A stretch of 64,000 nucleotides of DNA from Leptolyngbya sp. SIOISBB. Lineage in GTDB: Bacteria; Cyanobacteriota; Cyanobacteriia; Phormidesmidales; Phormidesmidaceae. This document shows, piece by piece, positions 28,114-57,200 of this stretch. Location of the stretch: contig JAAHII010000001.1 in the NCBI GenBank assembly GCA_010671905.1, positions 6,844,026-6,908,025 of the forward strand, written 5' to 3'. Under the pieces are notes generated by a model. That model was not told the DNA's origin and did not search any database. It saw only the letters and a list, made by a program, of their open reading frames with translations. Both the position numbers and the translations under genes were made by a program. Position 1 is the first letter of the stretch, and the number at the start of each line of letters is the position of its first letter.

Positions 28114-28361
28114 ACTGCATGGCCCTCGCCATACTGGAGTCTGTTCGATTACCTCAGGTCGTGTACCATCTATATCTCCAAAAGCCAAGAAGCTGAGCCT
28201 TCAGGAGAACTGCTCATCCAGCCAAGCGCTTTGGCGACTGCTCCTATTCTCATCAGGCGAAAACTGGGAGCAGGCTGACGACACCGAAATTAAGGAAAAT
28301 TTGCCCTTGGCAGCGATTACAATCAGGCATCGTCAGCGATCGCGCAGGTCACTTGCAGCAA

Positions 28362-29635: not shown

Positions 29636-31093
29636 CTACGACGCTGCAAAGGGATGCTGAACTCGCTGTAGAAGGGCATAAAACGGCTCCCAATCATTTT
29701 CGACCACGATGGGTTCCCAAATGGCCTCAATCTCTGGACGGAGTAAGACCGTCTGCGGATTCGTCTGACGTAACCGTTGGGACATTTGTGCGAGTTCATC
29801 GGCTGATTGGGTTTTCAGGGCCTGCCGGTAGTGCTGCCGCCACTGCTCTAACAACACCTGGGCGCCGGCATCAGAAGCCTGCATCGTCGTGTCAAAAATA
29901 GTGACGTCATCATTGGCCCAATCGGGAGAAAATTGCCCCGCCAGCGATCGAAAGAAGTCGTGGTAGCCCACCATCACTGAGTTCAATAAATCTAGGGTCT
30001 GATTAATCAGATCGCTGGCCAGCGGCTCTGGCAAGGATTCAAAACCCAGCTTGTGCAACATTCGTTGCGAATAGAACTGCCAATATTTGTCCTCAAATTG
30101 ATCCAGGATTGAGGTCATCTCCGTTTCGGGAATGACGCGTTTGAGAGGCTTTTGCAACATGCGTAAATTGAGCTGGCAAATCGCTGGCTGATTGCGATAA
30201 CAATAGCGGCTGGAATAGTCAAAATAGGCCGCTGTGAACTTGGGATCGTATTGGTCAAAAAAGGCATAAGGGCCATAGTCAAAACTTTCTCCGGTGATGG
30301 ACATATTGTCCGTGTTCAACACCGCGTGACAAAAGCCCACTGACATCCACTGTGCGGCCAGTTCTGCTGTCCGTTCCACCAGCTCACGATAAAACTGGAG
30401 ATAGCGCTCATCACGATCGCTCACACTCTGGGCTGCTGGATAGTAGTACTCAATGACGTGCTCTAACAGTCGCTGGATTAGATCAGTGCGATCGAGGTAA
30501 TCGAGTCGCTCAAAGGTGCCAAAGCGGATGTGTGAGCGGCTAAACCGCACCATTACTGCCGATCGCGTAGGAGAGGGCTCATCTCCTCGAAACAATTGCT
30601 CCCCGGTTTCAATCATGCTCAGCGTGCGAGACGTTCTCACCCCTAAAGCATGGAGGGCTTCTGCTGCCAAGACCTCGCGCACGCCGCCTTTTAAAGTCAA
30701 GCGACCGTCTCCTCCCCGAGAATAGGGCGTGGTGCCTGAACCTTTAGTTCCAAAGTCATAGAGATGGTCATCTTGGCCTATCACTTGACCGTAGAGAAAG
30801 CCGCGACCATCGCCCAGAAAGGCGTTATACGCCCCAAACTGATAACCGTGGTAGCGCAAGGCGAGAAAGGGCGATCGCCCCTGAAATTGGCCAAACGCCT
30901 CGACGAAATGGTCGTCACTGACTGCTGTCGGATCGAGCCCCAACCGCTGCAGCACCGCATCATTACGAAACCGCAGCAGCGTTTGCGGAAAATCTGCCGC
31001 TGCAACTTCGTCGTAATAATCGTCCCCAATCGATTCCAGGGCGGGCACATAGTCCAGTGACAGCAGCGGATTAGCTTGCGTGGCAACGGTCAT
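29636..31093 (-). CDS. selO: Protein adenylyltransferase SelO (YdiU/UPF0061)
   Basis: A 485-residue pseudokinase-fold enzyme that transfers AMP from ATP to protein Ser/Thr/Tyr residues (known for the family). The family signature is complete: [40 protein letters not shown] (nucleotide loop), [19 protein letters not shown], the catalytic-site segment [16 protein letters not shown] and DYGPYAF. The ATG is at 31091-31093. It diverges from the protein kinase gene. In other bacteria SelO is tied to redox stress. Confidence 0.92.
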
Positions 31094-38774: not shown

Positions 38775-41531
38775 CTAATCTGTCCCAGATGCCCCTAACA
38801 ATTCAGCTATATATTCACCAGTTTCACTTTTCCAGAGTTTGAGGCTTCTGTCATGGCTGCCAGTTACTAACAATTCACCATTGGGGCTAAAAGCTACCGT
38901 ACTGACCCAATCAGTATGACGGGTTGTCCTCATGACTTGCTTTCCACCAAGCGTATTCCATAAACGAATAACGCCATCAGCCTCACCATTTACAAATTTA
39001 TTTCCATCGGGACTAAATTGAATCGATAACACTGAACCAAGCAAATCAGGAAGTAGAGATTCTGAAAGGTCGCAGTTTGTCAAGTCAACATTGCGGAGAG
39101 TATTGCTTAAAAAGTTTGAGCCTGCGATTACAGTATTGCTTAAATTGTGCCCTTCAAGAAAATGTGGATTAATTCTTAAAAGAACAGTAATAGAATTTCC
39201 TCCAACATAGCCTACTTCGCTCTTAGACTTGTTTTGAGTTGATTGAATAAGTGTCACTAATCTCTTGCTGACGACATTACTGTTTAGCATTGGCAGCAAT
39301 AAATCTAGAGTTGCTTTATCAAGGATTCTCTTGCCGAAAGTTTCAATTGAGTCAGCTTCAAAGTTAATTTGAGATATATCAAAAGTGTCTTTGAAATCAT
39401 TTGCAAGAATCCCTAATTCAGCAGCAAATTTATAAGCTACGAAAAACTCTAAGAGAGAGCGATGAGCTGGAGTATAATCCCCCTCTGCATTACGAATGAG
39501 CATTGTCTGTCCCATCATGTCGTAATGCCAATGGTCGAGATCCTTCTCCTCCTCAACGGCAGGGCCAAACAGCTTGCGAATGCGGTCTGGGAACTTGCGG
39601 TAGTTGATGCTCATGCGGTCGGTGCTCAGCATTTCCCACGACAGTTCACACATGAAGTAAAGCTTGTCCGCCATTGAGGTAAACGTGCGCTCGGCTTTGA
39701 TATCCCGCTCCATCTTGTGGCGCACGGCATAGAGATACACCCGCGACATATCCACTGGCTTACCGGCCTCAATATCCGGCAGCGCTTCTAAAATTAGCTC
39801 TGTCAGCACCGGGCGACGAGCCAAATCCAGCAGTTCAGGATTGCCCATGATTTGCTCTACCGTGGCGGGTTGAGCCTGATACGAGAGCACCCGACGAATC
39901 TGCTCATCGTTGAACTTCTCCAGTTCCAGCACTTCAAACTGGGGTGTTTCTCCGGTCAGATCCTTCGTCGAAGCCTGCAGTTCGGCATTCAAGAGGGCTC
40001 GCCCTTCCTTCGCTTCCGGGAAGTGTTCCGTCCGACAGGTAAGGATGACCTTCGCTCCCGGCACCACCACCTTCGCCAGTTCCCAGAAGTTGTTGATCAT
40101 CTGCTGGCGATCTACACGAGCCGCCATTTCATCAAAGCCATCGAAGATTAGCAGCAACTTGCCCATACGGTTGAGCTGTTCAAAGGCCGAATAGCCCGGA
40201 ATCGGAATCTCGTGCTTGCGGAAGAAGAACTCCGAAAACAGCGACTCCACACTGACGGCTTTGGCATAGTCTCGCAGCGGCACCACCAGCGGCAATCGAG
40301 GGCGCTCCAATCCTCGTCGCTGAGCTTCGCGATAGCGCTGCAGCGCTTTCCAGGCATAGTGGAAGGCAAACCAGGTCTTGCCGGTGCCAAACTCGCCCAG
40401 CACTGAGATGTGCTCTTTGGCTGGATCATCTAGCCAGAGGTCGATGTAGCCATCAATCCAGCCGTCCCGGTCATCGTAGCGACTCGCGCCAACCCGCTGA
40501 CGAGTATCGGGGTCGATTTCTTCCTTCAGGCACGCTAGGGGCACATATTTCTGGTCAATCCCTCGCTGCTCAATCTCGGATTCTAACCAGGTGAGATAGC
40601 CGCTAAAGTCGGCATCTTGATCCAGCAGTTCATCAAAGGTAAAACAGCCCAGAGCGTCATTTTCCGCTTTCTCAACTTCGTCTCGGGCAGCCCGACTAAT
40701 CCGCCGGGCGGTGACCAGCCACCCTTCATCCGTGCGGTGAGTATCTACAGCCTGTTGCAAGTCTTGCACATCAGGCAATCCGGCTTCACCGTCAATGCCC
40801 CGCACCAGGATGCGATCGTACCGCCCTCGCCGCACCGGGATGTTGATAATCCATTCAAAGTAGTCGTTCTGCCAAACCTCATGGGACTCAAAGCGAAAAC
40901 CCAAGGTCTCGAACCAGCCGCGCATCTGTTGGGCCAAAGCAAAAGCTTTGCACTGTTCGGCGCTGAAAGTTTCGGGGGCGATCGCGGTTCCTGGTAAAGC
41001 TGGGTAGTCCTGAGCCGCCAACCGGGCCATTTCGGTACGCATTCCTTCAATGGTTGGCAGACGATTTAATCGCTCTTGCAGGCCACCAATTTGTCGATGC
41101 AGAGATTCCAGCTTTTGCTCAGCTAAGATTTCAGCCGGAGTGCGGGTGCGTTTGGCCACTTCGATAAAGACGGCAGCAAAAGCGTAAAACTCTCGCCGGA
41201 TATCGACATTATTGGCTTGGAGATCCGCTTGAAGGGGATGGTCGGCGAGAAAGTCTTCGCCGTTCTTCAGCAACATGGCGGGGGTATTGCGCTCCAGGGC
41301 TTCTCGGAAGAGTTCCTGAATCTTGGCCTGACGAAAGATTTCCAGCACCGGGCGAGGTTTGCCGACGCCATATTCCACCAAGGCGTATTGATATACGCCG
41401 GTAAAGTCGGCGGGGGGATGGTCGGGGTCGAGTTTAAGCCGTTTGAGCAGTTGAATAACGCGCTCGTTGCGGTTGATGCTCTCCATCGCAGAGTCGAAGA
41501 GCAGATCCATCAGGTTGTCCAGACCAAACAC
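38775..41531 (-). CDS. NLR-like NACHT NTPase with PD-(D/E)xK-like domain and WD40 repeats (N-terminal part)
   Basis: A 918-residue frame. Order: an N-terminal helical part (1-190); a Mrr/PD-(D/E)xK-like domain (about 195-300, YFEWIINIPVRRGRYDRILV) with an imperfect active site; a NACHT domain with Walker A GEFGTGKTWFAFHYAW near 375 and Walker B LLLIFDGFDEMAARVD near 455; a helical arm; a pentapeptide-like stretch; and the first WD40 blades. Such STAND proteins are known antiphage sensors whose repeats recognise a ligand and whose N-terminal domain is the effector. It starts at a GTG 8 bases after GGGAG. The frame ends early because of two one-base insertions (see the 37174 entry). Confidence 0.82.
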   Translation of the reverse strand: MFGLDNLMDLLFDSAMESINRNERVIQLLKRLKLDPDHPPADFTGVYQYALVEYGVGKPRPVLEIFRQAKIQELFREALERNTPAMLLKNGEDFLADHPLQADLQANNVDIRREFYAFAAVFIEVAKRTRTPAEILAEQKLESLHRQIGGLQERLNRLPTIEGMRTEMARLAAQDYPALPGTAIAPETFSAEQCKAFALAQQMRGWFETLGFRFESHEVWQNDYFEWIINIPVRRGRYDRILVRGIDGEAGLPDVQDLQQAVDTHRTDEGWLVTARRISRAARDEVEKAENDALGCFTFDELLDQDADFSGYLTWLESEIEQRGIDQKYVPLACLKEEIDPDTRQRVGASRYDDRDGWIDGYIDLWLDDPAKEHISVLGEFGTGKTWFAFHYAWKALQRYREAQRRGLERPRLPLVVPLRDYAKAVSVESLFSEFFFRKHEIPIPGYSAFEQLNRMGKLLLIFDGFDEMAARVDRQQMINNFWELAKVVVPGAKVILTCRTEHFPEAKEGRALLNAELQASTKDLTGETPQFEVLELEKFNDEQIRRVLSYQAQPATVEQIMGNPELLDLARRPVLTELILEALPDIEAGKPVDMSRVYLYAVRHKMERDIKAERTFTSMADKLYFMCELSWEMLSTDRMSINYRKFPDRIRKLFGPAVEEEKDLDHWHYDMMGQTMLIRNAEGDYTPAHRSLLEFFVAYKFAAELGILANDFKDTFDISQINFEADSIETFGKRILDKATLDLLLPMLNSNVVSKRLVTLIQSTQNKSKSEVGYVGGNSITVLLRINPHFLEGHNLSNTVIAGSNFLSNTLRNVDLTNCDLSESLLPDLLGSVLSIQFSPDGNKFVNGEADGVIRLWNTLGGKQVMRTTRHTDWVSTVAFSPNGELLVTGSHDRSLKLWKSETGEYIAELLGASGTD

Positions 41532-41636: not shown

Positions 41637-42155
41637 TTAATCCCACCAGAAGGAAATCACGACAGCATCTTGCTTATCGCCAAGGGTTTCGCTCCACAAC
41701 CCTCTTCGCAGCCGGAGGGCAAGATAGTCCCGAAATTCCCGGTCGTCTTCTTCCTCCAGGTCATTGCCGTCACACACATCGACCACATCGGCTCGCCATT
41801 TCTTGCCCAAATCCATCAGCTGAGCCACCAAAACATCCTGGTTTTCGGTCAGCACGTACAGCGTGTCGGCAGGGTAGGGAATAAAGTGCAGAATGCTCGT
41901 CTCTGGCATCGGGCGATAATTGGCCATAGCCAGGAGGGTTTCTAGGACGCCGTTAAAACTAAGTCCATCTTTGTCGGGCGCGTAGATAGGCTTGGTAAAA
42001 AGAAAGCTTTTCCAGAGTTTGGAATGCTGAGCCAGATCAGTGATGACCTCTTGACCATCAAACTCGTTGAACCGCCGCTGCCACACCAAAGCGGCTATCA
42101 GCTCTTGTGGAGAGTGAGATTGGGCAACAGCAGCTACCTTATCAACGTCAAGCAT
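41637..42155 (-). CDS. Small acidic protein coupled to the phosphorothioation-associated methyltransferase gene
   Basis: A 172-residue acidic protein. Its ATG overlaps the stop of the upstream methyltransferase gene by 8 bases, so translation is coupled. Segments such as DVDKVAAVAQSHSPQELIAALVWQRRFNEFDGQEVI and the C-terminal DREFRDYLALRLRRGLWSE are not a family I can name with confidence. The coupling suggests the two proteins act together. No membrane or signal segment is present. Confidence 0.6.
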   Translation of the reverse strand: MLDVDKVAAVAQSHSPQELIAALVWQRRFNEFDGQEVITDLAQHSKLWKSFLFTKPIYAPDKDGLSFNGVLETLLAMANYRPMPETSILHFIPYPADTLYVLTENQDVLVAQLMDLGKKWRADVVDVCDGNDLEEEDDREFRDYLALRLRRGLWSETLGDKQDAVVISFWWD

Positions 42156-44232
42156 CAGGAGTTATCCTCTGCTGATTGGGTTTTGAGTTGCAACTGCGAG
42201 ATCGCACCGCCTGTTTCTGATAGTCAGTCACATCTGGACGCCAGACCAACCGATGCCCCCTCAACTCGGCTCCGCAATCAGCTAGATATTGCTGCCAACC
42301 ACGCAGATCATAGATAGCTTTACTATCTTTCAAAAGGCCCCATTTGCGCTCCTGCTGGCTGAGCTTGGCGAACTTGCTGTAGCCGGGATAGTCCTCGGTG
42401 ATGAGCTGATCCTTTTGGTGTAGCAGGGGCGGATTGTCTTGGTCGTAGTCGCGGTAGCGGACATGCAGATCGCGGAGACCTATGGCCATGCTGGTATGCA
42501 ATGCCGGGTGCGGTTCCTTATCAAAGCCGGGATAGAACAGGTAAGTGATCTGGGGCTTTTGGACGTGGAACTTCACCACTGTGGCTTCTTCGGGGCGTCC
42601 GATGGTGCGAGAGGCACAGCCTTCATAGAGGCGCAGGAGTGGGTCAAGCTGATCGATCGCAGAGATATGCACCCACAGGGAATTAGGTCGCTGTTGTCCA
42701 ATGGCACTCTGACGGCACCGTTCTTCAACCAGCTCGGTTCGCCCTAAGCTCATCAGCATCAGGTCAGCAGCAGTGCAGGCTTGCTGGTAACTGCCGAAGA
42801 AGGCTTTGATGTCAGTGCGGATGGTGGGAGAAAGGTCTTTGAATTTAGGGCGTTTGCCGAAATGGCTCAGGGCGAGATACACCAGCAAGTCGTTGCGGCG
42901 TTTGTCGGAGATGGCATCCCATTCCCCGGCATCGGTGGCTTGCAGGACGACCTTGAACGCTCGCTTGATGCTGCCAAATTTCGACTGAAGGGGGCCGAGG
43001 GCATCGTGGTCGAGTTCTTCCACGGCAGGGAGGCGACCGCGATCGGTGTAGAAGTCCATCAGCGGTTGCAGCAGTTCGCGGTATTCCTCAAACTTGTTGA
43101 CTTTGAGGCGAATGCGGGGGGCAGTGGCACGGGAACGGAAGCGCGAGGCGCGGAAGACTTCGGCTTGAGCTTCATCGCGAAAAATAAAGTAGATGCCGAG
43201 GGCAACCGGAATGGAGTCAACGCCTAAAACCTGGTCGATGTAGGACTTCAGTTCTTCCTGTTCGTAGTACTTTTGGAAGGTGTTGCGGCTGGTGATGATG
43301 CCGTCGCCATAGGCAATGACACCACGGGTGCGGTCATCAATCAGCACTTGAGCCGCGACAATTAGTACCTTCTGAGATAGTTTCCAAGCATTGATCAAGG
43401 CTTCCCGCCGCTCAGCAGTATCTTCGATGACATTGATGACATAGCCGAGATTCACGACATCGGCAGACACATGGGCTTCATCGGGGCGGTAGTAAGGATC
43501 CCAGCCCGCACTGGCGAGGCCCAGCCGCTTGATGTATTCGATATCGGCACCGTGACCGCAACCGTAGTCGAAGTAAGTGGCGTCAGAGGGAAAGAGCCCC
43601 GCTTCGACAGCAAGGCGGACAGGTTTGGAGGCAGTAACACGGGCGATCGCCGCTTTATGTCGCTGAATCTTGGGTTTCGCTTGAGTTGGCTTCGCTTCAG
43701 TCTGAATGGGGCAGGCGAGGGCGTGGTCATGAATGACGAGGGTGCGATCGCGCAGCCGCTGTTCCCAAGCATTGCAGAACCCGATTCCCTGTGAGTCCTC
43801 TAGCAACCCCAGGACTTCCTCTTGCATTGTCAGCCAAGTAAAGGTGTCGTAGTGGGGATAGTCAGGAGTAACAAACGTTTCTTTGCGGTGTAGCACTGGG
43901 GGATTATCGGTTGTACTGTAGTCCCGCTCTCCAGCTTCTAGCGTCTTGAGATTGACTTGAATACTGCTCTGCAGGGCCGGATGGGCGTCAGCATCAAAAT
44001 CTGGGTAAAACAGATAGACGATTTGAGGCTTATTGAAACTGAACTTAACAAGGGTTGCATTTTGGGCTTGAGGCGTTGCCGTTCTTGCCTGTTGTTCTAA
44101 AATTTGTAATTCCGAATGCAGGGTACCGAGGGCAGAGACGTGAACGTACAAGGCATCTGGCAGTAGTTTACCGACTGCACTGCGTTTGCACAGCTCAACA
44201 TAGGACTGCGTTTGAGTGGATACCCTGGCCAT
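42148..44232 (-). CDS. DNA phosphorothioation-associated putative methyltransferase
   Basis: A 694-residue protein of the family described as a putative methyltransferase linked to Dnd phosphorothioation genes. The central domain has a SAM-binding start (ATYFDYGCGHGADIEYIKRLG, near residue 218) and AGWDPYYRPDE. It is flanked by two related modules of about 150 residues. The N-terminal one has LYVHVSALGTL, PQIVYLFYPDFD, HPALQSS and LHRKETFVTPDYPHYDTF; the C-terminal one has LWVHISAIDQL, PQITYLFYPGFD, HPALHTS and LHQKDQLITEDYPGYSKF. The gene heads a minus-strand unit, divergent from the DUF4007/ATPase pair. No target base is known. Confidence 0.8.
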   Translation of the reverse strand: MARVSTQTQSYVELCKRSAVGKLLPDALYVHVSALGTLHSELQILEQQARTATPQAQNATLVKFSFNKPQIVYLFYPDFDADAHPALQSSIQVNLKTLEAGERDYSTTDNPPVLHRKETFVTPDYPHYDTFTWLTMQEEVLGLLEDSQGIGFCNAWEQRLRDRTLVIHDHALACPIQTEAKPTQAKPKIQRHKAAIARVTASKPVRLAVEAGLFPSDATYFDYGCGHGADIEYIKRLGLASAGWDPYYRPDEAHVSADVVNLGYVINVIEDTAERREALINAWKLSQKVLIVAAQVLIDDRTRGVIAYGDGIITSRNTFQKYYEQEELKSYIDQVLGVDSIPVALGIYFIFRDEAQAEVFRASRFRSRATAPRIRLKVNKFEEYRELLQPLMDFYTDRGRLPAVEELDHDALGPLQSKFGSIKRAFKVVLQATDAGEWDAISDKRRNDLLVYLALSHFGKRPKFKDLSPTIRTDIKAFFGSYQQACTAADLMLMSLGRTELVEERCRQSAIGQQRPNSLWVHISAIDQLDPLLRLYEGCASRTIGRPEEATVVKFHVQKPQITYLFYPGFDKEPHPALHTSMAIGLRDLHVRYRDYDQDNPPLLHQKDQLITEDYPGYSKFAKLSQQERKWGLLKDSKAIYDLRGWQQYLADCGAELRGHRLVWRPDVTDYQKQAVRSRSCNSKPNQQRITPDA

Positions 44233-44518
44233 AAACTGCGATTAAGAGTTTTACACCTGTTAGGCTAATGCGCCCCATGCTATCGGATCTCAACCTTTTC
44301 CAAAGCGTAACCGGAAAGCGTAACTGGGTTCGACCACAACCGCAATTCAATATTTAGCGTGACTATACAAGCGAAGACTCTATCAGTAGGGTGAGTAAGT
44401 GTTTGTTACATAAACCGCTCCCAGATGAAGATCTGCGCTGAAATGTTTTTGACTTTCAGTCTGGAGATTTCGACGGGGCATCGACATAATTAAGTAATAC
44501 CTTTGAACTGTTTATTAG
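44233..44518. promoter_or_regulatory. Divergent promoter region of the defence operons
   Basis: The 286 bases between the minus-strand methyltransferase unit and the plus-strand DUF4007 unit must hold promoters for both. I cannot define -10 and -35 boxes with confidence. Confidence 0.5.
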
Positions 44519-45448
44519 ATGGCGAAATCATCGGTCAAAGCACCTCCAAAACCCACTGCTATCTTTGCTCGCCATGAAACCTTCCATCCCCGGTTTGGCT
44601 GGCTGAAGAAAGGCTACGACCTGGCAGTGAGTGATCCCGACATTTTCTTGCAGGAAGATGCACCGGTGTTGCTGGGGGTAGGAAAGAACATGGTGCGCTC
44701 TATTCGCTATTGGTGTGGAGCCTTCAAAGTGCTGGAAGAGCGAGATCGCCACAGCTTCCCCACCGCCTTTGGTCAACAAATGCTCGATGACGAGGGTTGG
44801 GATCCGTTTCTAGAAAATCCCGCCAGTCTTTGGCTACTGCACTGGAACCTGTTGAAGGAACCCTGCACCGCAACGGCCTGGGCCTTTACCTTCAACCAAT
44901 TTGCGGCCACGGAGTTCACCACTGAAAACTTGCGGGATGATCTGCAGGAATATGCCGAAGGATTCAGCGGGAAGACAGCAGACTCGTCCTTGAAAAAGGA
45001 TGTGAGCTGTATTTTGCGGATGTATGCGGAACAAGAGAGCAAAAAGGGACCCACGGAAGATTCCATCGACTGTCCATTTACAGAGTTGCGGTTGCTTTAC
45101 AACGTGGGGGATGGGCGGCGCTATGAGTTTCAAGTGGGTCCTAAGGAAACGCTTCCCGCCGAGATCGTAGTGGCAGCCTGTTTAGAGTTTGCTCACGCCT
45201 CTGAGAATGAAAGTTCAGCGATGGGGATTTCGCGCTTAGCACACTTACCAGGAAGCCCCGGACGGGTATTTAAGCTGTCGGAGGCAGCGATCGCCGAGGC
45301 GATTGAACAGGTCGCCCGCCAGCACAAGTACCTCTACATTTCAGACAGCGCTGGCTTGCAACAGTTGCAATACGATAGCCAGCCCGATGTCATGGCCGAG
45401 GCCATTCTGGATGACTATTTTGCTGCTCAAAGGGTTGCGATATCGTGA
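44519..45448 (+). CDS. DUF4007 protein (SspB-like), first copy
   Basis: A 309-residue protein with the DUF4007 signature FARHETFHPRFGWLKKGYD near residue 16, then LGVGKNMVRSIRYWCGAFKV and DPFLENPASLWLLHWNLL. DUF4007 occurs in SspB, the nickase of SspABCD phosphorothioation systems, and in other phosphorothioation-linked loci (family knowledge). Its TGA overlaps the GTG of the next gene (GTGA), so it is translationally coupled to the large ATPase. Likely a DNA-binding or DNA-nicking partner of that ATPase; this is inferred. Confidence 0.82.
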   Translation: MAKSSVKAPPKPTAIFARHETFHPRFGWLKKGYDLAVSDPDIFLQEDAPVLLGVGKNMVRSIRYWCGAFKVLEERDRHSFPTAFGQQMLDDEGWDPFLENPASLWLLHWNLLKEPCTATAWAFTFNQFAATEFTTENLRDDLQEYAEGFSGKTADSSLKKDVSCILRMYAEQESKKGPTEDSIDCPFTELRLLYNVGDGRRYEFQVGPKETLPAEIVVAACLEFAHASENESSAMGISRLAHLPGSPGRVFKLSEAAIAEAIEQVARQHKYLYISDSAGLQQLQYDSQPDVMAEAILDDYFAAQRVAIS

Positions 45449-48400
45449 CGACTCAATCTTTATCTGAACTCCTGTCAGTTAATCGCCGGTATGCTCGCTC
45501 CGTCAACATCGAGCGAGATTTTGACATGCCGGATGCGGTGGAGGGGTATATCCTCACTGAGCGAGCCGTGGATGCCCTGCAGCGGATTGTAGCGTCCATG
45601 TTTGGCCGTAAGCGCACAACTGCTTGGACGCTGACTGGAGTCTATGGCACCGGGAAGTCGGCGTTTGCCCATTTTTTAACCAGTTTGCTGGGGCCGGCCC
45701 ATAGTCCGGCGCGGCAAATTGCTTTGGACATTGCCCAGCAGAGCCTGCATCCGGAGAGCCCAGAATATGGGGCACTACAAACAAAATTGCCGGAGCAGGG
45801 GCTATTTCGGGCGGTGGCGACCGCCCAACGAGAACCGTTGAGAGCCACTTTGGTGCGGGCTTTAAACAATGCTTCTGATGAGTATTGGCAGCGGGGACGA
45901 GAGCCAGAGGTTTCTAAAAAGCTGACGGATTGGGCAACGGAAATTGAGTTCGGCCCACCGCAGTTTAGCGATCGCGATGTGCTCCAGACGATTCAGCAGT
46001 TGGCTGAGACAGTCGATACCGACATTGTGCTGATTGTGGATGAGCTGGGCAAATCGCTAGAGTATGCCACCCAAAACCAGGCGACCGCTGACCTCTATCT
46101 GCTCCAGCAATTAGCGGAACTCTCGCGGAAAAAGGGCACCCGCTTCTACATTTTCGGACTGCTGCACCAAGCGTTTGAAGATTACGGACAACGGTTAGCC
46201 TCGTTGGAAAAGAACGAGTGGGCCAAGATTCAGGGGCGATTTGAAGACATTCCGTTTACGGAATCCTCTCAGCAAATGCTGCGACTGATGGGGCAAGCCA
46301 TTAACCGCACCCAAGCCGAGACGCTGACTTTTCCGGTTCACAAGCGGACCGAGCAGTGGTGTGAGATTCTGCGGGAGTCAGGAGATCTGGCCGACGTGTC
46401 GTCCAAGCTGTTAGAAGCGACATATCCGCTCCATCCGATCGCCTCCCTGGTTCTCCCGGAACTCTGCATCCGCTACGCTCAGAACGATCGCTCCCTGTTC
46501 ACGTTTCTCACCAGTGCAGAACCCTACGCCTTTCAGCAGTTTCTAGAAATTGCCGAGCTACGGGACGATTCGCTGCCAACGCTGAAACTGCACCACCTCT
46601 ATGACTACTTTGTAGAGTCTTTGGGCGCTGGGATGGGATCGCGTCCGGGCTTGCAGCGGTGGCTGGAGATTCAAACTCTGGTGGCAGATGCCAAGCATCG
46701 GGGCGGAGAAACCGTGGCGCTGCTGAAAACTATTGGTTTGCTGAACTTGCTTACCAGCACCGGGTTGCTGCGAGCGACGCGATCGCTGGTCAAGCTCGCC
46801 CTGGTGGATCGTCCCGATGATGATGCAGCACTAGCGGCTTGGGAGCAGCAGATTGACTTGGTGTGCCATCAGCAGGGCATTGTCACCTATCGCCAGTCCC
46901 TAGACGAATTGCGGCTGTGGGAAGGATCAGACTTTGATGTCGAGGGCACCATCCGCGCCTACATCGACAAAGACACCCTGCCCTTAGCAGAATTACTGAG
47001 GGAAACCTATCCCCTCAAGCCGCTGGTAGCCCAGCGCCATAGCTATCGCACCGGTACCCTGCGCTATTTTGAGCGGCACTATCTGGATACCACCGCTAAT
47101 TTAGAAAATTTAGCCTGCACCCAACCGGACTGCGATGGGGCGATCGCCTACTGGTTGAATGAGCCGCCGCCCGTTACGGTTCCCGCCCAAACAACAGATG
47201 GCAAGCCGCTAGTCGTGATTGCTGCCGCCAACCTGGCTTTATTGCGGGTGCGATCGCAGGAATATAGCGCCCTCTGCCAGATTCAGCAGCAGGAAAGTGC
47301 CTTGCAAACGGATAAGGTGGCCGCGCGGGAAGTTCGTCATCGGCGGGTACAGCTCAAGCAGCTCTTAGACGAAACGCTGGTGCAAGCATTCAACTTTGGT
47401 ACTCACCACAATGCCTGCTGGGTTGAGGGCAAATTGACGGAAATCAGCAGCCTGACCAACTTCAACGCACTGCTGTCAAAGGTATGTGATCGCACCTATC
47501 CCCACACGCCCATTCTCTGGAATGAGCTGATCAATCGCCGCAATCTGACCTCCCAAGGAGCCAAAGCGCGACGAATGTTGATTGAGGTCATGTTGGAGCA
47601 AACCGACCAGGAACGGTTGGGCTTGCAGGGCTATGGACCAGAGGTAGCAATGTACTATTCCCTGCTGGAGCAAACGGGGATTCACCGTCAGGAGCAAAGA
47701 GAATGGGGCTTTTATCCGCCTCAGGGCAAGCAGCGCCGGGGAACCAGGGAGCAAAAGCATAAAGGGGGAACCAATCTCTCCGCGGTTTGGGAGGCGATCG
47801 CCCATTTCTGTCTGCAAGCCAACGGCAAACCTCAGTCTTTGGACGGGCTTTACCAACAATTGGATGCACCGCCCTACGGCATGAAGCAGGGCGCGATTCC
47901 GGTGATGCTCGCGGCGGTTTTGTGGGTCTATGCTGACGAGGTCAGCGTATATAAGGACGGCACTTTCGTTCCGGTCTTGGGGCCAGAACATTTCGAGCTG
48001 TTGGTGAAAGATCCCTCCCGCTTCTCGGTGAAGCATATTGACGTAACCGGGGTGCGAGGGCAGGTTTTCCGAGAATTGGAGGCCATTTTGCGCAGTGGGG
48101 TGACGAAGCCCAGAGATCGAGCCGGAGCCCGTAACCTGACAGTTTTATCGGTGGTGAAGCCGCTGATTCAGTTTGTGCGGAAGTTGCCGAACTACACCCT
48201 TAAGACGCGCCGGATGAGCGATCGCGCCCGCTCCGTTCTGCAAACTCTGCTTTACACCCAGGAGCCAGATGATCTGCTGTTTAAGGCCCTGCCAGAAGCC
48301 TGTGGACTGGCACCCATCGTGATTTCGGAGGCTGATGATGGCGGCACCGCCCGCATCTTCCGAGAGCAGCTAGTCGAGGCCCTGCGGGAAATCAACGCCG

Positions 48401-48990
48401 CCTATGACACCCTGCTCAATGAGTGTCAGGACTTGCTCTACAGTGCCTTTGGGGTCCATAGCGATCGCACGAAGCTCCGCTCTGACCTTCAGTTTCGGGC
48501 TAGTCGGCTGTTAGGGAACTGTGTGGAGGCAAGTCTGAATCGCTTTGCTAGAGCCGCAGCGGATGAAGGGAAAAGCGATCGTCCCTGGTTAGAGGCGGTG
48601 GTAATGGTGATTGCCGATAAGCCTGCCGAATCTTGGACGGATGAAGATATGATCCGCTTTGAGCTCAGCCTGAGCGATCTGTCGCGACGGTTTAAGAATT
48701 TAGAAGCCCTACAGGCTTCGGTGAAAGCGACCAGCAAAGGTGGTTTTGAAGCGCGACGAGTCACGGTGACTCGCCCCGATGGCACGGAAATCAACAAAAT
48801 GGTCTGGGCCGATCACGAGCACTACGCCAAGGTCGATCCCGATATTGATCACATCTTCCAGCAGTACTCTGATCCACAGCTACTGCAAACCTTATATACC
48901 CGCTTCACCGAACGGCTGTTTGATGAGTCAGAATCAAAGCAGGTGAAACCCTCCGATGAGACTGTCGGCGATCGCAGCAGGACTGGATAA
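45445..48990 (+). CDS. Large P-loop ATPase paired with DUF4007
   Basis: A 1181-residue protein. Walker A is GVYGTGKSAFAHFL near residues 66-78 and Walker B is IVLIVDELGKSLEY near 193-205; the latter is followed by a sensor-like region (GTRFYIFGLLHQAFEDYG). The rest is a long helical multi-domain part with no enzymatic motif I recognise. The P-loop part resembles the BrxC/PglY-type ATPases of BREX. It is translationally coupled to the upstream DUF4007 gene by a 4-base overlap, and the Uma2 gene starts one base after its stop. It likely drives conformational steps on DNA in the defence system. Confidence 0.78.
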   Translation: MTTQSLSELLSVNRRYARSVNIERDFDMPDAVEGYILTERAVDALQRIVASMFGRKRTTAWTLTGVYGTGKSAFAHFLTSLLGPAHSPARQIALDIAQQSLHPESPEYGALQTKLPEQGLFRAVATAQREPLRATLVRALNNASDEYWQRGREPEVSKKLTDWATEIEFGPPQFSDRDVLQTIQQLAETVDTDIVLIVDELGKSLEYATQNQATADLYLLQQLAELSRKKGTRFYIFGLLHQAFEDYGQRLASLEKNEWAKIQGRFEDIPFTESSQQMLRLMGQAINRTQAETLTFPVHKRTEQWCEILRESGDLADVSSKLLEATYPLHPIASLVLPELCIRYAQNDRSLFTFLTSAEPYAFQQFLEIAELRDDSLPTLKLHHLYDYFVESLGAGMGSRPGLQRWLEIQTLVADAKHRGGETVALLKTIGLLNLLTSTGLLRATRSLVKLALVDRPDDDAALAAWEQQIDLVCHQQGIVTYRQSLDELRLWEGSDFDVEGTIRAYIDKDTLPLAELLRETYPLKPLVAQRHSYRTGTLRYFERHYLDTTANLENLACTQPDCDGAIAYWLNEPPPVTVPAQTTDGKPLVVIAAANLALLRVRSQEYSALCQIQQQESALQTDKVAAREVRHRRVQLKQLLDETLVQAFNFGTHHNACWVEGKLTEISSLTNFNALLSKVCDRTYPHTPILWNELINRRNLTSQGAKARRMLIEVMLEQTDQERLGLQGYGPEVAMYYSLLEQTGIHRQEQREWGFYPPQGKQRRGTREQKHKGGTNLSAVWEAIAHFCLQANGKPQSLDGLYQQLDAPPYGMKQGAIPVMLAAVLWVYADEVSVYKDGTFVPVLGPEHFELLVKDPSRFSVKHIDVTGVRGQVFRELEAILRSGVTKPRDRAGARNLTVLSVVKPLIQFVRKLPNYTLKTRRMSDRARSVLQTLLYTQEPDDLLFKALPEACGLAPIVISEADDGGTARIFREQLVEALREINAAYDTLLNECQDLLYSAFGVHSDRTKLRSDLQFRASRLLGNCVEASLNRFARAAADEGKSDRPWLEAVVMVIADKPAESWTDEDMIRFELSLSDLSRRFKNLEALQASVKATSKGGFEARRVTVTRPDGTEINKMVWADHEHYAKVDPDIDHIFQQYSDPQLLQTLYTRFTERLFDESESKQVKPSDETVGDRSRTG

Positions 48991-49741
48991 ATGGACCGCA
49001 AAACCATCTCCCCATTAAAGCGTTCCGTAGAACAAACGATTCCGCCTCGGCCTGCGAAGGAAACGTTGCCGACTATGTATGATTTGCCAAGCGAATTTCC
49101 AGAGGAGCCGGGCTTGCCTGACGAATTTCACTATCTGCAACCCCAACTATTGAGTGCCACGCTGCGGTTGGCCAAGTATGCCGATGAAGAGATCTTCAGC
49201 GTTGGGGGATATGAACATCTACTACGATGTCGATCATCCGCTCTGGCATAAGCGTCCCGATTGGTTTGCGGTTGTGGGGGTGCCCCGGTTGTACGAAGGG
49301 CGAGATCTGCGCCTTAGCTATGTGGTATGGCAGGAGCGGGCCAACCCCTTTGTCGTTGTGGAGCTGCTGTCGCCAGGAACGGAAAAAGCTGATTTGGGCC
49401 AGATGAGTCGCGATAAAGATGGCACGCCCACTAAGTGGGAAGTGTATGAGCAAATTTTGCGGGTTCCCTACTACATTGTGTTCGATCGCTACACCAATCG
49501 ACTCAGAGCGTTTCATCTCGTCGGCGGACGTTATCAACCGATGGAAATCGTCGATCAGCGGGTCGAGATTTCTGAATGGGAGGTCAGCATTGGCGTTTGG
49601 CAAGGTGCCCATCGAGGTCTGGAACGGCCCTGGCTCCGTTGGTTTGATGCTGAGAACAAACTCATTCTGACCGCCGAAGAACGGGCTGAGCGATTGTCTC
49701 AACGGCTTAGAGACATGGGCATCGATCCGGACGAAGTTTGA
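48991..49741 (+). pseudogene. Uma2-family putative endonuclease, interrupted by a one-base frameshift
   Basis: The first frame (48991-49251) reads LPSEFPEEPGLPDEFHYLQP and then breaks. The rest of the domain continues in another frame (DMNIYYDVDHPLWHKRPDWF, then VVVELLSPGTEKADLG) to 49741. Removing one G from the five-G run at 49204-49208 joins VG to DMNIYYD and gives one 249-residue Uma2 protein. Uma2 proteins have a PD-(D/E)xK-type nuclease fold with Asp in PDW and Glu in VVEL, and are very numerous in cyanobacteria. The ATG follows the TAA of the ATPase gene directly. It may be intact in the organism if the extra G is a sequencing error. Confidence 0.75.
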
Positions 49742-49752
49742 GGAGTAGCAGC

Positions 49753-50403
49753 ATGGTGTTAACCGTTAGCCGAGAGCGCATTCAGCTGCCCCCAGGCAGT
49801 GAAGTGACCCTCACGTATCAAACCTGGGAAGACTACGAGGCCCTATTAGCTAGTCGCCGCGATGATGCCGCCATCAAAATTCGCTATAACGCTCATACTC
49901 AAACGCTTTCTCTCATGGCTCCTTTAGCTGGTCACGGTAACCGTAGTCGGACTTTGGCCGATTTGGTGACAACACTACTGCGCCATCAAGATCGTAACTG
50001 GCATGGGTTTGATCCAGTCACGCTGAAACGACTGCGTGAAGCTGGATTAGAACCTGACACTTGTTTTTATATCGAAAATTGGCAGGCAGCTTTAGGTAAA
50101 GAGCGTATTGATCTTGCGGTGGACCTACCCCCTGATCTGGCCATTGAAGTTGATATCACCTCACTCACGACTCTGAAAATTTATCAAATGCTGAGAGTTC
50201 CTGAAGTGTGGATTTATCGTCAGGGACAGCTTAGTGTTTACGTCCTGACGGCAGAAGGCTATGAAGACAGCGCTCAGAGCCCAACGTTCCCGACTGTAGA
50301 TGTGAAAGCAGTGTTGCCGGAGTATGTGGAGCGGGCTTGGTCAGCGGGATCAAGTGTAGCCTTGCGGGAATTTGAGGCGTGCTTGAACACGCTTAAAGGT
50401 TAG
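49753..50403 (+). CDS. Uma2-family putative endonuclease
   Basis: A 216-residue Uma2 protein: LTYQTWEDYEALLASR at the start, HGNRSRTLADLVTTLL, then PDTCFYIENW, DLAIEVDITSL (Asp and Glu of the nuclease-like fold) and VPEVWIYRQGQL. It belongs to a different branch of Uma2 from the gene just upstream. The GAGGAG ribosome site lies in the end of that gene and the ATG is at 49753. Its role in defence is not known. Confidence 0.8.
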   Translation: MVLTVSRERIQLPPGSEVTLTYQTWEDYEALLASRRDDAAIKIRYNAHTQTLSLMAPLAGHGNRSRTLADLVTTLLRHQDRNWHGFDPVTLKRLREAGLEPDTCFYIENWQAALGKERIDLAVDLPPDLAIEVDITSLTTLKIYQMLRVPEVWIYRQGQLSVYVLTAEGYEDSAQSPTFPTVDVKAVLPEYVERAWSAGSSVALREFEACLNTLKG

Positions 50404-50452: not shown

Positions 50453-50935
50453 ATGACAAATGCAAAGTGGCAGCAGAAAGACAAGAGAGCTTTTGACACT
50501 TCACTGTACGATCGCGACTTCCATCTGTGGACACAGCACCAAATTGCCTGCCTACAAAAGGAACAGTGGGCAGAGGTGGACGTAGAAAATTTGGTTGAGG
50601 AGTTAGCGGACTTGGGCAGAAGTGAACAAAAGGAACTTGGCAGTTACCTGAAGGTGCTGCTGATGCATTTGCTCAAGTGGCAGTATCAATCGGAACGGCG
50701 CACCAAAAGCTGGGCAATCACGATCGCGAATGGTCGAGATAGTATCCAGGATTGCTTGGAGGATAGCCCGAGCTTGCAACGGTTTCTGAACGAGGCCGAT
50801 TGGGTCGCCAAATACTATCGTCGTGCCCGCCGCGATGCGGTCAAAGAAACGGAGTTATCTGCTGATACTTTTCCCGCTGTGTGTCCCTACACCATGGCCC
50901 AAATCCTGGATCCCCAGTTTTGGCCTGAAGCCTGA
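50453..50935 (+). CDS. DUF29 family protein
   Basis: A 160-residue protein with the DUF29 core: LYDRDFHLWTQHQIACLQK, WAEVDVENLVEELADLGRSEQKEL, LLMHLLKWQYQSERRTKSW and the C-terminal CPYTMAQILDPQFWPE. DUF29 is abundant in cyanobacteria with no known function and often sits near Uma2 and toxin-antitoxin-like genes. A GGAAGG ribosome site precedes the ATG. Confidence 0.88.
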   Translation: MTNAKWQQKDKRAFDTSLYDRDFHLWTQHQIACLQKEQWAEVDVENLVEELADLGRSEQKELGSYLKVLLMHLLKWQYQSERRTKSWAITIANGRDSIQDCLEDSPSLQRFLNEADWVAKYYRRARRDAVKETELSADTFPAVCPYTMAQILDPQFWPEA

Positions 50936-52042: not shown

Positions 52043-52840
52043 ATGATTAAAAAAGTACGTCATATCATGGGCCTTTCTGGTGGCAAAGACAGTACGGCAC
52101 TCGCTGTACTGCTTCATAAAGAGATCCAAGGCATGGAATATTTCTTCTGTGATACTCATAGAGAACTTCCAGAAACTTATGAATATCTAGATCGCATCAA
52201 AGCAAGATTGGGAGTCAATATCCATTATCTCTCCGCTGAAAGAGACTTCGATCATTGGCTGGCTCTTCATAGTGGATATTTACCATCACCTAAAAGGCGC
52301 TGGTGTACAGAGCAGATGAAGATCAGACCCTTAGAAAAATTTGTTGGAGAAGACGAAGCAATTAGCTATGTAGCTATCCGAGCAGATGAAGACCGTTCCG
52401 GATATATATCAACAAAAAACAATATAAAAGCTGTCTTTCCTTTCAAAGATCACGATATTACTCTTGAAGGCGTTTACAGGCTTCTTGAGGACAGTGGTAT
52501 TGGCTTACCAAAATATTATAGTTGGAGGACAAGATCAGGCTGTTACTTCTGCTTCTTTCAACGCAAATATGAGTGGGTAAGACTTTCCGAAGAACATCCT
52601 GACTTATTCAAAAAGGCTATTGAGTATGAGCAAAATCACAAGGATGGTCGTCAGTATACATGGACTGATGGTGAAACTCTTTTAGAACTTATAGCTAGAA
52701 AAGAGCAGATCATTTTCGATCACGAAAAAGCGATGCTCAGAAAAGCGAAAGAATCTCCTAACAAGCCCCTGGCAGAAGCTTTAGAAACTGTTCTCGATGA
52801 GGATGATGATTTAATGCCGTGTTTGATGTGTAGTTATTAG
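52043..52840 (+). CDS. DndC/SspD/BrxP-like ATP-pyrophosphatase (PAPS reductase family)
   Basis: A 265-residue protein. The PP-loop MGLSGGKDSTALAVLL at residues 9-24 binds ATP. Family members DndC/SspD activate DNA for sulfur insertion in phosphorothioation, and BrxP of type 4 BREX has the same domain. Cysteines in KRRWCTEQMK, SGCYFCFFQR and MPCLMCSY could hold an iron-sulfur cluster. No cysteine desulfurase gene is in the window, so sulfur would come from a housekeeping enzyme. The DNA is more AT-rich than on either side. The gene opens the second block of the defence operon. Confidence 0.83.
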   Translation: MIKKVRHIMGLSGGKDSTALAVLLHKEIQGMEYFFCDTHRELPETYEYLDRIKARLGVNIHYLSAERDFDHWLALHSGYLPSPKRRWCTEQMKIRPLEKFVGEDEAISYVAIRADEDRSGYISTKNNIKAVFPFKDHDITLEGVYRLLEDSGIGLPKYYSWRTRSGCYFCFFQRKYEWVRLSEEHPDLFKKAIEYEQNHKDGRQYTWTDGETLLELIARKEQIIFDHEKAMLRKAKESPNKPLAEALETVLDEDDDLMPCLMCSY

Positions 52841-52910
52841 CTCTAGTGGGAAAATAATCTCTAGAACTAACAGCTTTCAGTTTTTGCCCCATCAACCTGA
52901 GAGAAAGTTC

Positions 52911-53744
52911 ATGTCTGGTTTACGGCTCAGTTTCCACGGAACGTTTGCGCTCAAAAAAGAGGATGTTCTCAAGATCCTTCAAGCTGCACAAGAGAAACAA
53001 GGGCTTAAAGATAGCCGCCAGGGGCTGATGGATAGAACTGGTCTGGGAAATGAAAAGGTTCTACGGATTAAGAGCTGGGCAATTCGCGCTGGACTCGTGC
53101 AAGATGACAAGCTGAGCCCAGAGGGCGCATTCATACTGGCCAAAGATCCTTACCTTGAGTCGCCTCTCACCGACTGGTTCATGCACTTTTACCTCAGCTT
53201 TGGCGACAACGGCCTGGCTGCCCCGCCCGATAATCCTGCCGCTTGGGGCGGCTGGACCTGGTTTGTCTATAGCTTCTTGCCAGAACATCGCCGCTTTACC
53301 CAAGACGAACTCGTTGGTTATGCCAGCACCGTCTTCCCTGAAGAGACCACCAAAAAGCTGACCAAAAACCTCAAAATCCTCCTTCGCGCCTATACCGAAA
53401 CCTATGCTCTTTCAGGTTGTCGGTATCTCTACACCGAAGGTGACGAATATATTTCCGGTCAGGGGTGGCAGTCCAACGAATACTTAATGGGTTACTTTCT
53501 CGCCAAAATCTGGGAACGCGACTATCCCGGCCAAACCTCGGTGCTCACCGAAGCGATTTTGAGTCACAAATTGAGCTTAGCCGCCGCTTTGGGCATCTCC
53601 ACCGATACCCTGCAAGAGCGCTTCAATGCCCTCGAAGTTTTGGGAATTATCGAGCAACGGCGCGAGGTACCGCCTTTCCAAATTTTGCCCCGCTGGGATA
53701 GCCCCCTAGAGTTGCTGGAGCAAGCATATGACCGCAACAACTAG
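52911..53744 (+). CDS. DUF4007 protein, second copy
   Basis: A 277-residue protein with the DUF4007 layout: LSFHGTFALKKEDVLKIL near the start, TGLGNEKVLRIKSWAIRAGL, KDPYLESPLTDWFMHFYLSF and AWGGWTWFVYSFLPEHRRFT. It aligns by eye with the 44519 protein over the first 100 residues but belongs to a different branch. An upstream TTG (52884) is possible; the ATG at 52911 is preferred. Its end overlaps the next gene by 17 bases. Role inferred: DNA-binding or nicking partner in the phosphorothioation-linked system. Confidence 0.75.
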   Translation: MSGLRLSFHGTFALKKEDVLKILQAAQEKQGLKDSRQGLMDRTGLGNEKVLRIKSWAIRAGLVQDDKLSPEGAFILAKDPYLESPLTDWFMHFYLSFGDNGLAAPPDNPAAWGGWTWFVYSFLPEHRRFTQDELVGYASTVFPEETTKKLTKNLKILLRAYTETYALSGCRYLYTEGDEYISGQGWQSNEYLMGYFLAKIWERDYPGQTSVLTEAILSHKLSLAAALGISTDTLQERFNALEVLGIIEQRREVPPFQILPRWDSPLELLEQAYDRNN

Positions 53745-54240: not shown

Positions 54241-57200
54241 ATGCTCCTCAAAGAACTCGTCGAAGTCAACCAAAAAGGAAACGTCGCCAACGCCGTCAAT
54301 TTCGACATGATGGACGATCCAGAGACGAACCAAGACCTCTGCGACAGTTTCATCTTCAACTACGACCCGAAAAAGCCAGAGCTATCTACCGTCGGCATTC
54401 TCGATCGCCTCAAAGAGAGCTACCACAGCCGTAACGAGCCGAACGTCCACATGATGATTCAGCAGTATGGCAAGGGCAAGTCTCACTTCGCCGTCGTACT
54501 CGCCAACTTCTTTGGCAAACCTGCCGATAGCCCAGAAGTTCATGGCATTGTCGATCAGGTCGATAAAGCGACTTCAGGTTCTTCCAAAGTTATTGCCGAA
54601 AAAATCAAGAGCTACAAACAACGCCAGGAAAAACCTCACTTAGTGCTGTGTCTCAGCGGAGACAAGGGCGGCGATATCCGCAAGCAATTCTTGCAAGTGG
54701 TGATCGATGAACTGGCAGCGGCTGGGGTCGATAACGCGATCGCCACCCACATGTGTCGTGAACCGCTGAACTATCTGGAAGGACTCAGCCCAGAAAATAA
54801 AGCCAAGGCCGATGCCTATTTAGAAAGCCTGAGCAACCCGGATGGCGATGTTAATAGCTTGATCAAGCAGCTTCAGAAACATAATCCCGGTGTGATTCGC
54901 GCTGTCAAAGATGTCTGCCGCCACGTTTCCAACGTTGCCCCTGACTTTCAGGACGATATCAACGTTGAAGCCATCCTCCGTGACCTACTCGACCATCTCT
55001 GCTCTGGCGAAAGTGCCCAGTTCAGCGGCATCCTCATCCTGTTCGATGAGATGAACTACTACTTGCAATCTTGGGCGGCTGACCAGATTGGTGCAGGGGG
55101 CACCGCCCTGCAAAATATCACCAATATCTGTGAACTCTACAAGGGCAAAATTGCTCTCCTCAGCTTCACGCAGATTAAGCTGGACACCGCTGTCGGAATT
55201 TCCCCTAGCGTCAAGGAAAGCTACCTCAAACTTTCCTCGCGCCTTTCTCCGGGACAGAGCACCTACGATGGCCCAGCCTCCAGCCTAGAGCTGGTCATCG
55301 ACAACATGCTGACCCAAAAAGAAGACACCTCCCAGTGGCAAGACTTTTTGCACCGGTGGAACGATACGCTTCTGGACACTGCACGGGATGCCTTTGAGAA
55401 ACGCATCAAAACCTATCAACAGCGGGGGTGGAATCTAGAGTATTTTTACAATCACCTTTCTAAAGGCTGCTTCCCGCTGCATCCCATTACTGCATATCTA
55501 CTCTGCAATCTCGATTTCACCCAAGACCGCACCGCAATTCAGTTCATCAAGGGATACGTTAACCAATTCATTGCAGATAAGCCAGTCGAAGAAAATGAAT
55601 ACCTGAGCTACATTTATCCCATCGACCTAGTCGATACCTTTGCCGAAAACTTCTCTAACGAGAGTATCTACAAGCGTTATCAAGAGGCTTGCAAGGTTGT
55701 CCTGAGTTCCGAAAATCCGGATGAACCGAAAGCTCTTAAAGCTCTTTTTCTCTATTTTACCAGCGGTGAAAAGCTTTCTAAAAACAATGACCGAGAAGAC
55801 CACGAAGCCATTTTAGGAGCCTTAGCAGGGCTATCTGAAAATCGCATGAAAGCGGCCTTGCATAGCTTGATGAATACCCGCGATCTCATCTCCTACAAAC
55901 CGGAAATCAAGCTTTATCGATTCTGGGAAGGCATCTCGCCGAGGGGGATCGAAGACGAAATCGAAGATTTGATTCGTGACAAGGTCACCTCAGTGCAAAG
56001 TATCGTTGGTGTCTGTCAAGGCAGTCGCAAAGCCTTGCTGGGAGATACTGTTTGTGTCGCTAACCAATTTGTGCGAGATCGGAAACTAGTGGCCGATGAC
56101 TGGCGATATGAGATCAAGTTCTATACACCGGATGCCTTAATTTATGACTTGGGTAGCGAACGTACCATGCGAAGTACTGAAGAACGGGGCATTCTTGCCT
56201 ACGTTCTGGCAGAAACCCAAGAAGAACTGACAGATCTACGCCTAACAATTAATGACCACCTAGCGAAATCTCCGAATGAAGACTCGATAGCGGTAGCGAT
56301 TCCCTCCGAAGCGACAGGAGATCTCGCTCGAGTACTGCTCAAGCAGAGAACGCTTGCCGATGTGGACTCCCAAAAAAAGAGAATGTGGGGCATGGCTGCT
56401 TGCGATCAATTAGAGCAACGCTGGTCTGAACAACTAATCACTCGCCTTCGGCAAATCTTGGAATCCTGCTCTTATTACTGCATCACCGCAAACAAAGTCC
56501 CTATAGACAAGCGCAATCAGTCGTCTTGGATAATTAGCTCGTTATTGAAAGAACTCTATCCTTTCGTACCCCCCGTCGATGGCATCGAGAAATTAAGGTC
56601 TGATCACGGAACTGGCAAAAAAATTGTGAAATCGGTAGCTAGTCAGCTTCTCGCCGACACATTATCACCTCAAACCTTGCAAGAGACATCCCATAGAACA
56701 GTTACTGATTCGATATTCGTGAGTTCTTGGGGCTTACTGAAAAAGACTTCAAACAAATATATTCCGCGAGAGCCCAAAGACGAAAACTTAAAGGCAGCTT
56801 GGAATGAAATTGAGCATTTGACTGATTTGGAGGGAAACCCAGAAAAGACTTTCATCCTCAATGATATTTGGAAAGTCCTTTCAGAACCGCCCTATGGCTA
56901 CAGCGAATATAACTTCACTGTCCTTTTTGCAGCTTGGCTCGCATGTCATCGTAAGGAAGTAATGCTTAAGGGTCCTAATGCCGTCAAGCGAAATAGCAGA
57001 CAACAGGTTTCAGTCAAACAGCAAACGTTGAAGGAATGGACGGACACAGATCTATTCCATGACCCAAAGGCATTTGTTAGAAGTTGGATTGTAAAAGATA
57101 GAGCCAAGCTTATTCGTAAGGAGGGTTTGAGCCTGCCCGAACTGCCCAATTCTCCAATGGATTTGAGTCAAGCGCAGGACTATTTGGAGAAAGCGAATCA

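Follow-up and report, generated by a model that had tools for sequence, protein, structure and literature searches.

Why would a putative methyltransferase linked to DNA phosphorothioation (PT) carry two copies of one module, placed on either side of a single catalytic domain? The question is raised by a gene of the cyanobacterium Leptolyngbya sp. SIOISBB, in a 64,000-nucleotide stretch of contig JAAHII010000001.1 (assembly GCA_010671905.1, positions 6,844,026–6,908,025; hereafter the window). The gene (42148–44232, minus strand) is a single open frame encoding a 694-residue protein with the order module–methyltransferase–linker–module. The reading that we favour, with moderate confidence, is that this protein serves PT systems, of both the Ssp and Dnd types, as an accessory methyltransferase directed at DNA, and that gene fusion turned it into a single-chain pseudo-dimer.

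A duplicated module around one methyltransferase domain

The 694-residue protein belongs to family TIGR04096 (dnd_rel_methyl), described in the database as a DNA phosphorothioation-associated putative methyltransferase: it scores 848.4 bits against a cut-off of 150 and covers the whole profile (positions 1–478). The profile hits the protein in two stretches, of which the best (residues 188–665) spans the methyltransferase domain, the linker and the C-terminal module (C-module), while the N-terminal module (N-module) forms a separate, partial stretch. The TIGR04096 model describes a methyltransferase, a linker and one module, and the protein differs from it by the additional module ahead of the methyltransferase. 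N-modules of relatives also match the profile only partially (approximately positions 300–477). Apart from TIGR04096, no Pfam, PHROGs or PADLOC family covers the module among the proteins scanned.

The N-module (residues 8–176; 43705–44211, minus strand) and the C-module (residues 501–665; 42238–42732, minus strand) are clearly related. In a BLASTP comparison of residues 1–180 with 491–694, residues 7–172 align with 498–662 at 70 of 166 identical positions (42%), with 60% positives, one gap and an E value of 4e-46. Chance similarity or low complexity as the source of this likeness was ruled out by shuffling: the two halves have a Smith–Waterman score of 347, and the best of 1000 shuffles reached 63. 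Four motifs recur in both halves (N-half/C-half): VHVSA/VHISA, HPALQSS/HPALHTS, PQIVYLFYPDFD/PQITYLFYPGFD and LHRKETFVTPDYPHY/LHQKDQLITEDYPGY. AlphaFold predicts the same succession of strands and helices in both modules (E22–24 to E171–173 versus E513–515 to E661–664), the sole difference in secondary structure being an extra short helix (54–58) in the N-module.

The initial annotation, made from the letters of the DNA, had proposed a PT-associated methyltransferase in which two related modules sharing these four motifs flank the domain that binds S-adenosylmethionine (SAM). The family score, the SspB, SspC and SspD homologues adjoining or near the gene, the self-alignment over about 166 residues, far beyond the motifs, and the predicted structure all bear this out. 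One detail needs refinement: the SAM-binding domain is indeed flanked by the modules, but the methyltransferase (about 186–372) is separated from the second module by a helical linker about 120 residues long.

The full-length AlphaFold model has a predicted local distance difference test score (pLDDT) of 87.6 and a predicted template modelling score (pTM) of 0.66, and the N-module folded alone reaches 96.7 and 0.91. No clear match to the module was found in the PDB (Foldseek best E 0.28; VIA-align best Z 3.9; sequence profile best E 1.1), which does not prove a new fold. Against BFVD, the module matches one viral protein of 1232 residues (E 2.5e-7, 106 columns, 26% identity).

Methyltransferase domain, linker and substrate

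The central domain (residues 186–372; 43117–43677, minus strand) is a predicted class I SAM-dependent methyltransferase, which VIA-align matches to 7bgg (Z 14.0, rmsd 3.0, 147 residues aligned). It contains FDYGCGHG (residues 221–228; 43549–43572, minus strand), which we take to be SAM-binding motif I and which is invariant at seven of its eight positions in 59 aligned proteins; NLGY (residues 261–264) follows strand 4. Class I small-molecule and thiol methyltransferases (7bgg, UbiG, TehB and NmbA) have the Rossmann methyltransferase fold in common with this protein, but identity is only 12–18% and the aligned ranges end at about residue 355, so that the modules and the linker lie outside. The linker (residues 376–498; 42739–43107, minus strand) consists of two three-helix units (about 385–432 and 435–497) that resemble PF18780 HNH_repeat (24.8 bits, below the Pfam gathering cut-off of 26). 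This sub-threshold match is the sole signal of DNA-binding type in the protein, and it sits in the linker rather than in the modules. The modules, for which a DNA-binding role had first been suggested, match no Pfam or PHROG family and have no clear PDB match, and that suggestion is not supported.

Several observations weigh against a DNA-directed enzyme. The best structural neighbours of the methyltransferase domain are mostly small-molecule methyltransferases. Motif IV of DNA amino-methyltransferases (N6-adenine or N4-cytosine), [DNS]PP[FYW], is absent from the protein and occurs in 0 of the 59 aligned methyltransferase regions. The HNH_repeat match, below its cut-off here, reaches E ≤0.01 in only 18 of the 59 aligned proteins, a count that depends on this E value and not on the Pfam cut-off. 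PCQ, the catalytic motif of C5-cytosine methyltransferases, is likewise absent from the protein and from the 59 methyltransferase regions.

A possible explanation is that the substrate is not a DNA base but the PT sulphur, a thiol intermediate or a small molecule with control over the system. Such a substrate would suit the thiol and small-molecule methyltransferases among the structural neighbours (4nec, the bacillithiol methyltransferase 9ri2 and TehB, beside UbiG and NmbA) and the lack of a canonical motif IV. However, Trm9, which acts on tRNA, and bacterial Hen1 are among the neighbours too, and the repeat that the linker resembles is one linked to homing endonucleases. Because this fold class is catalytically broad, structural neighbours do not fix the substrate, and we hold a non-base substrate to be unlikely, though worth keeping in view.

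Complementary residue loss in the modules

We then compared two sets of alignment columns, chosen because single modules (those of relatives with the order methyltransferase–linker–module) conserve them: R534, G538, C539 and G545, present in the C-module of the 694-residue protein, and N110, P111, H115, R116, K117, F131, G142 and W156, present in its N-module. Identical module sequences were counted once, the counts come from related sequences and are not independent events, and the groups called cyanobacterial include two loci (L070 and L071) that fall in other classes within the phylum. Locus L118, at a contig edge that cuts its first module, was kept separate.

Single modules of the phylum conserve both sets, with 23, 19, 23 and 23 of 23 for the R/G/C/G set and 22, 22, 22, 21, 23, 22, 23 and 22 of 23 for the set from N110 to W156. 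Cyanobacterial C-modules keep the R/G/C/G residues (111, 109, 110 and 110 of 111), which are rare in the N-modules (13, 6, 12 and 4 of 111). The N110–W156 residues are kept by the N-modules (111, 111, 111, 111, 111, 111, 109 and 111 of 111) and counted 81, 107, 104, 9, 100, 96, 107 and 108 times in the 111 C-modules. The division is sharper in Proteobacteria than in cyanobacteria: proteobacterial N-modules have 10, 11, 11, 11, 11, 7, 11 and 11 of 11 for the N110–W156 set and 3, 0, 0 and 3 of 11 for R/G/C/G, and the C-modules have 0, 1, 0, 1, 7, 0, 2 and 0 of 8 and 8, 4, 5 and 8 of 8, respectively. The 694-residue protein itself has Q43, Q47, Q48 and P54 at the places of R, G, C and G in its N-module, and Q606 at the place of R116 in its C-module. 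Separate overlapping genes of a Sphingomonas locus (L168) show the same N- and C-type division, and two actinobacterial modules retain most of both sets. Almost every module retains the residues at G21/G512, L38/L529 and P85/P576.

In brief, N-modules keep a face that contains NPPxLHRK, C-modules keep the R/G/C/G face, and single-module enzymes keep both. This complementary loss favours a pseudo-dimer with specialized halves. Three points count against such an interpretation: (i) the columns were picked after their conservation in single modules had been seen; (ii) the NPPxLHRK set is only partly lost from cyanobacterial C-modules, mainly at R116, with H115 and W156 still in 104 and 108 of the 111; and (iii) 32 of 133 N-modules keep at least one of the four R/G/C/G positions, with three kept in L049.

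Probable origin by tandem fusion

Traces of a second catalytic core survive in a few relatives. The protein of locus L068 (genome G229), 915 residues long, carries a decayed methyltransferase and a shortened linker ahead of its first module. The first methyltransferase lacks the motif I region but is recognizable (E 1.6e-23), and the first half of the protein can be aligned in order to the second along more than 400 columns. Among 34 N-terminal pieces of double-module proteins longer than about 30 residues, remnants of a linker end precede the N-module in L064 (E 3.6e-11), L054 (E 1.8e-9; L005 is the same gene) and L068 (E 9.6e-7); all others gave E 0.1 or worse. In the Sphingomonas locus, an N-type module gene overlaps a methyltransferase–linker–module gene by 4 nucleotides. 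Because of the remnants in L068, L064 and L054, we suggest that two tandem genes probably fused and that the first catalytic core and its linker then decayed, at least in cyanobacteria.

Trees were also considered. Dereplication reduced 300 modules to 143, of which 95 entered the module tree; module matches shorter than 100 residues had been dropped, and the bootstrap values had not settled. In this tree, cyanobacterial C-modules and four single modules (one of them L118) form a clade (support 99/96) apart from the N-modules and the other single modules. A methyltransferase–linker tree (71 of 166 rows, dereplicated at 80%, L118 left out) requires seven changes of architecture.

Some of the evidence speaks against a single fusion of whole genes. 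Remnants are rare, with three distinct genes among the 34 pieces and a methyltransferase remnant in one only; the data do not reject a separate duplication in Proteobacteria (p-AU 0.379); and a grouping that puts every C-module on one side is supported at 64/86. Alternatively, only the C-terminal module might have been copied to the N-terminus by domain shuffling. Most double proteins, including that of Leptolyngbya, have no recognizable remnant before the N-module, as such copying would predict, and clear remnants are confined to the three genes named above. It is nevertheless hard to reconcile with L068, in which decayed methyltransferase, shortened linker and module follow one another in the order of the second half, or with L054 and L064, which retain the end of the linker normally found before a module; we regard domain shuffling as quite improbable.

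It is equally doubtful that the modules are target-recognition domains that each read half of a bipartite DNA site, in the manner of the two such domains of type I specificity subunits. In favour of this, the chain holds two diverged copies, cyanobacterial N- and C-modules group separately in the tree, and DNA is what the neighbouring system modifies. Against it, relatives conserve the modules strongly, with many invariant columns, unlike fast-changing target-recognition domains; the modules match neither a known DNA-binding family nor a clear fold; and many relatives have one module only.

Returning to the fused pseudo-dimer, two homologous modules in one chain together with apparent traces of whole-gene duplication in relatives mark the Leptolyngbya protein as a putative fused dimer. 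The dimer-like arrangement proposed in the initial annotation thus survives in part: the origin appears dimer-like, given the layout of L068 (decayed methyltransferase, part of linker and module, followed by methyltransferase, linker and module), but the halves are not equivalent, as the complementary residue loss indicates.

We propose the following steps. The ancestral form would have been methyltransferase–linker–module; two tandem copies may have fused and then lost the catalytic domain of the first, together with most of the linker attached to it, to give module–methyltransferase–linker–module. The fusion remnants come from cyanobacteria. Judging from the residue counts, the surviving modules would have divided the ancestral surfaces, with the NPPxLHRK face left to the N-module and the R-YEGCASRTIG face to the C-module. 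In single-module relatives, the two faces could cooperate, most simply between the partners of a homodimer; the double form might rebuild this two-face site within one chain that has one catalytic centre. The linker may bind DNA, which would be methylated by the enzyme, and the methyl mark could accompany or limit PT modification.

Association with phosphorothioation systems

Our comparison of 141 loci, some from related records, with neighbours labelled by phmmer at more than 40 bits, reveals an sspB homologue head to head with the methyltransferase gene within 1 kb in 24 loci, a dndC-like gene in the same position in 23, and dndD just upstream on the same strand in six. Some PT gene lies within 10 kb in 57 of 117 double-module loci and nine of 14 single-module loci, so that linkage with PT is common but not universal. 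By these labels, a large number of loci have none within that distance, which counts against the favoured reading, and some contigs end sooner. In Pseudoalteromonas, the methyltransferase gene directly precedes dndBCDE, although the enzyme itself is not a component of DndABCDE or DndFGH. In several alphaproteobacteria it stands behind a PAPS-reductase gene, two more genes and a large gene with an FtsK/SpoIIIE domain, all on the same strand. Loci with DndD/E versus SspB/C number 6 versus 1 for single and 19 versus 28 for double forms (Fisher p 0.04; p 0.065 with three viral loci added). This association of singles with Dnd and doubles with Ssp is a weak trend that we do not claim, because the loci are related to each other.

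In the window, homologues of SspBCD adjoin or lie near the gene. A divergent spacer of 286 nucleotides (44233–44518) separates the gene from that of the SspB homologue (DUF4007; 44519–45448, plus strand), which is followed on the plus strand by those of an SspC homologue (AAA ATPase; 45445–48990) and an SspD homologue (PAPS reductase family; 52043–52840). Between the sspC and sspD homologues lie two open reading frames (ORFs) of the Uma2 family and a DUF29 ORF (49154–50403; 50453–50935). Neither the SspA cysteine desulfurase nor the SspE effector was matched among the 17 window proteins scanned against PADLOC. Further along the plus strand are a second, divergent SspB-like gene (DUF4007; 52884–53744), a gene whose 1826-residue product matches SspC more weakly (best E 1.2e-15; 54241–59721) and a gene for a MAD6/PglW-like kinase (59755–63450). 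The final residues of this kinase ORF presumably resemble the start of a PglZ domain. What we would label a PglZ-like region (63300–63550) appears by eye to continue in another frame from about 63420, where the break would be a frame change or a sequence error.

On the other side, a 172-residue ORF of unknown function (41637–42155, minus strand) overlaps the end of the methyltransferase gene by 8 nucleotides; its homologues stand directly behind the methyltransferase gene in six other loci and elsewhere in a seventh. Beyond it, positions 38775–41531 encode a NACHT protein with NNH5, an inactive-nuclease-like domain and WD40 repeats, possibly a further defence gene.

The abstracts consulted on Ssp systems describe SspABCD with SspE or SspFGH and name no methyltransferase component. 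Among the titles and abstracts listed from the open-licence literature searched, none deals with the function of TIGR04096, and the sole paper found under the family name is, from its abstract, a genome description.

Distribution of double and single forms

TIGR04096 exceeds its cut-off in 104 of 386 genomes of the phylum of the window (cyanobacteria). Among 104 matches that span the methyltransferase, 76 lie in frames of 611–927 residues and 28 in frames of 483–585 residues, and domain scans of fetched loci show that long frames are module–methyltransferase–linker–module and short ones methyltransferase–linker–module. The duplication is therefore not common to all family members, a point that the initial annotation had raised for checking, since these 28 have single-length frames. 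This split was counted by hand on frame length, with G016 (585 residues, match 63–477) taken as single; it includes six double-length rows that match only to position 425–431 and two frames with one stop (G109 and G056), and it leaves out broken genes in G385 and G159. One genome (G197) has one double and one single form. A module profile matched 108 of the 386 genomes, 29 of these once, relics included. A decayed module relic is also present in the Leptolyngbya genome itself (L002:1501–1680; 72% identity to residues 583–642, three stops).

A scan of species genomes took the best 80 of 549 confirmed stretches, ranked by similarity to the 694-residue double protein. Of these 80, 79 are titled cyanobacterial and one (L148) is a metagenome-assembled genome titled Tatlockia; 79 genes are double, and the remaining one, L118, is cut by a contig end. 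Because this set was chosen as nearest to a double protein, it says little about the frequency of single forms. Synechocystis sp. PCC 6803 carries the gene on pSYSM (28096–30168). Plasmid loci extend the family to Pseudomonadota, with 8 of 12 loci double; L162 and L164 have an N-module and no recognizable C-module, L168 is split, and L170 stops after the methyltransferase. In Actinomycetota, Nonomuraea gerenzanensis (L171) has a single form, and a frame change interrupts the gene of Arthrobacter. After the C-module, certain proteobacterial and viral members (L153, L165, L158 and L166) have about 170–190 extra residues with no Pfam match. Methyltransferase-only matches that lack a module occur in cyanobacterial plasmid records (H28–H35) and viral contigs (L154 and L155).

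Stand-alone modules in phages

An uncultured phage of 485 kb (L182, the same as L173) has a stand-alone N-type module (6001–6573) and, about 0.6 kb downstream, a methyltransferase-like ORF (7168–7692). The similarity of this ORF is modest (score 65, where the best of 300 shuffles reached 50; profile E 0.013 over the full set of scanned ORFs). A 60-kb viral contig encodes a stand-alone N-type module of 171 residues (L177:4611–5126), and no methyltransferase match was found within the 11 kb examined around it. A distant module appears at residues 24–165 of CAL9981009.1 from Vibrio phage D481 (L184:3929–4909), with E 3e-9 among 22 ORFs and E ~1 in a collection-wide tblastn; weak tblastn matches occur in 19 Vibrio phage records. 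Such stand-alone modules suggest a counter-defence angle.

Implications

In the boldest reading, the module of about 165 residues could be a reader of PT-modified or otherwise altered DNA with a new fold, whose composite two-face site lies across a homodimer in single forms or within one chain in fused forms. Phage N-type modules (L173/L182 and L177) might then mimic or block the host mark, and the host protein might add one asymmetric methyl group beside the asymmetric PT mark. We offer this wider scheme tentatively and consider it unlikely as a whole.

The fusion remnants and the complementary decay yield a concrete hypothesis, namely that the two module faces form one working site. With a confident predicted model and no clear solved relative, the module is a good target for structure determination. 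The methyltransferase accompanies PT systems in many lineages, and the double enzyme provides a natural test case for how such a methyltransferase is assembled.

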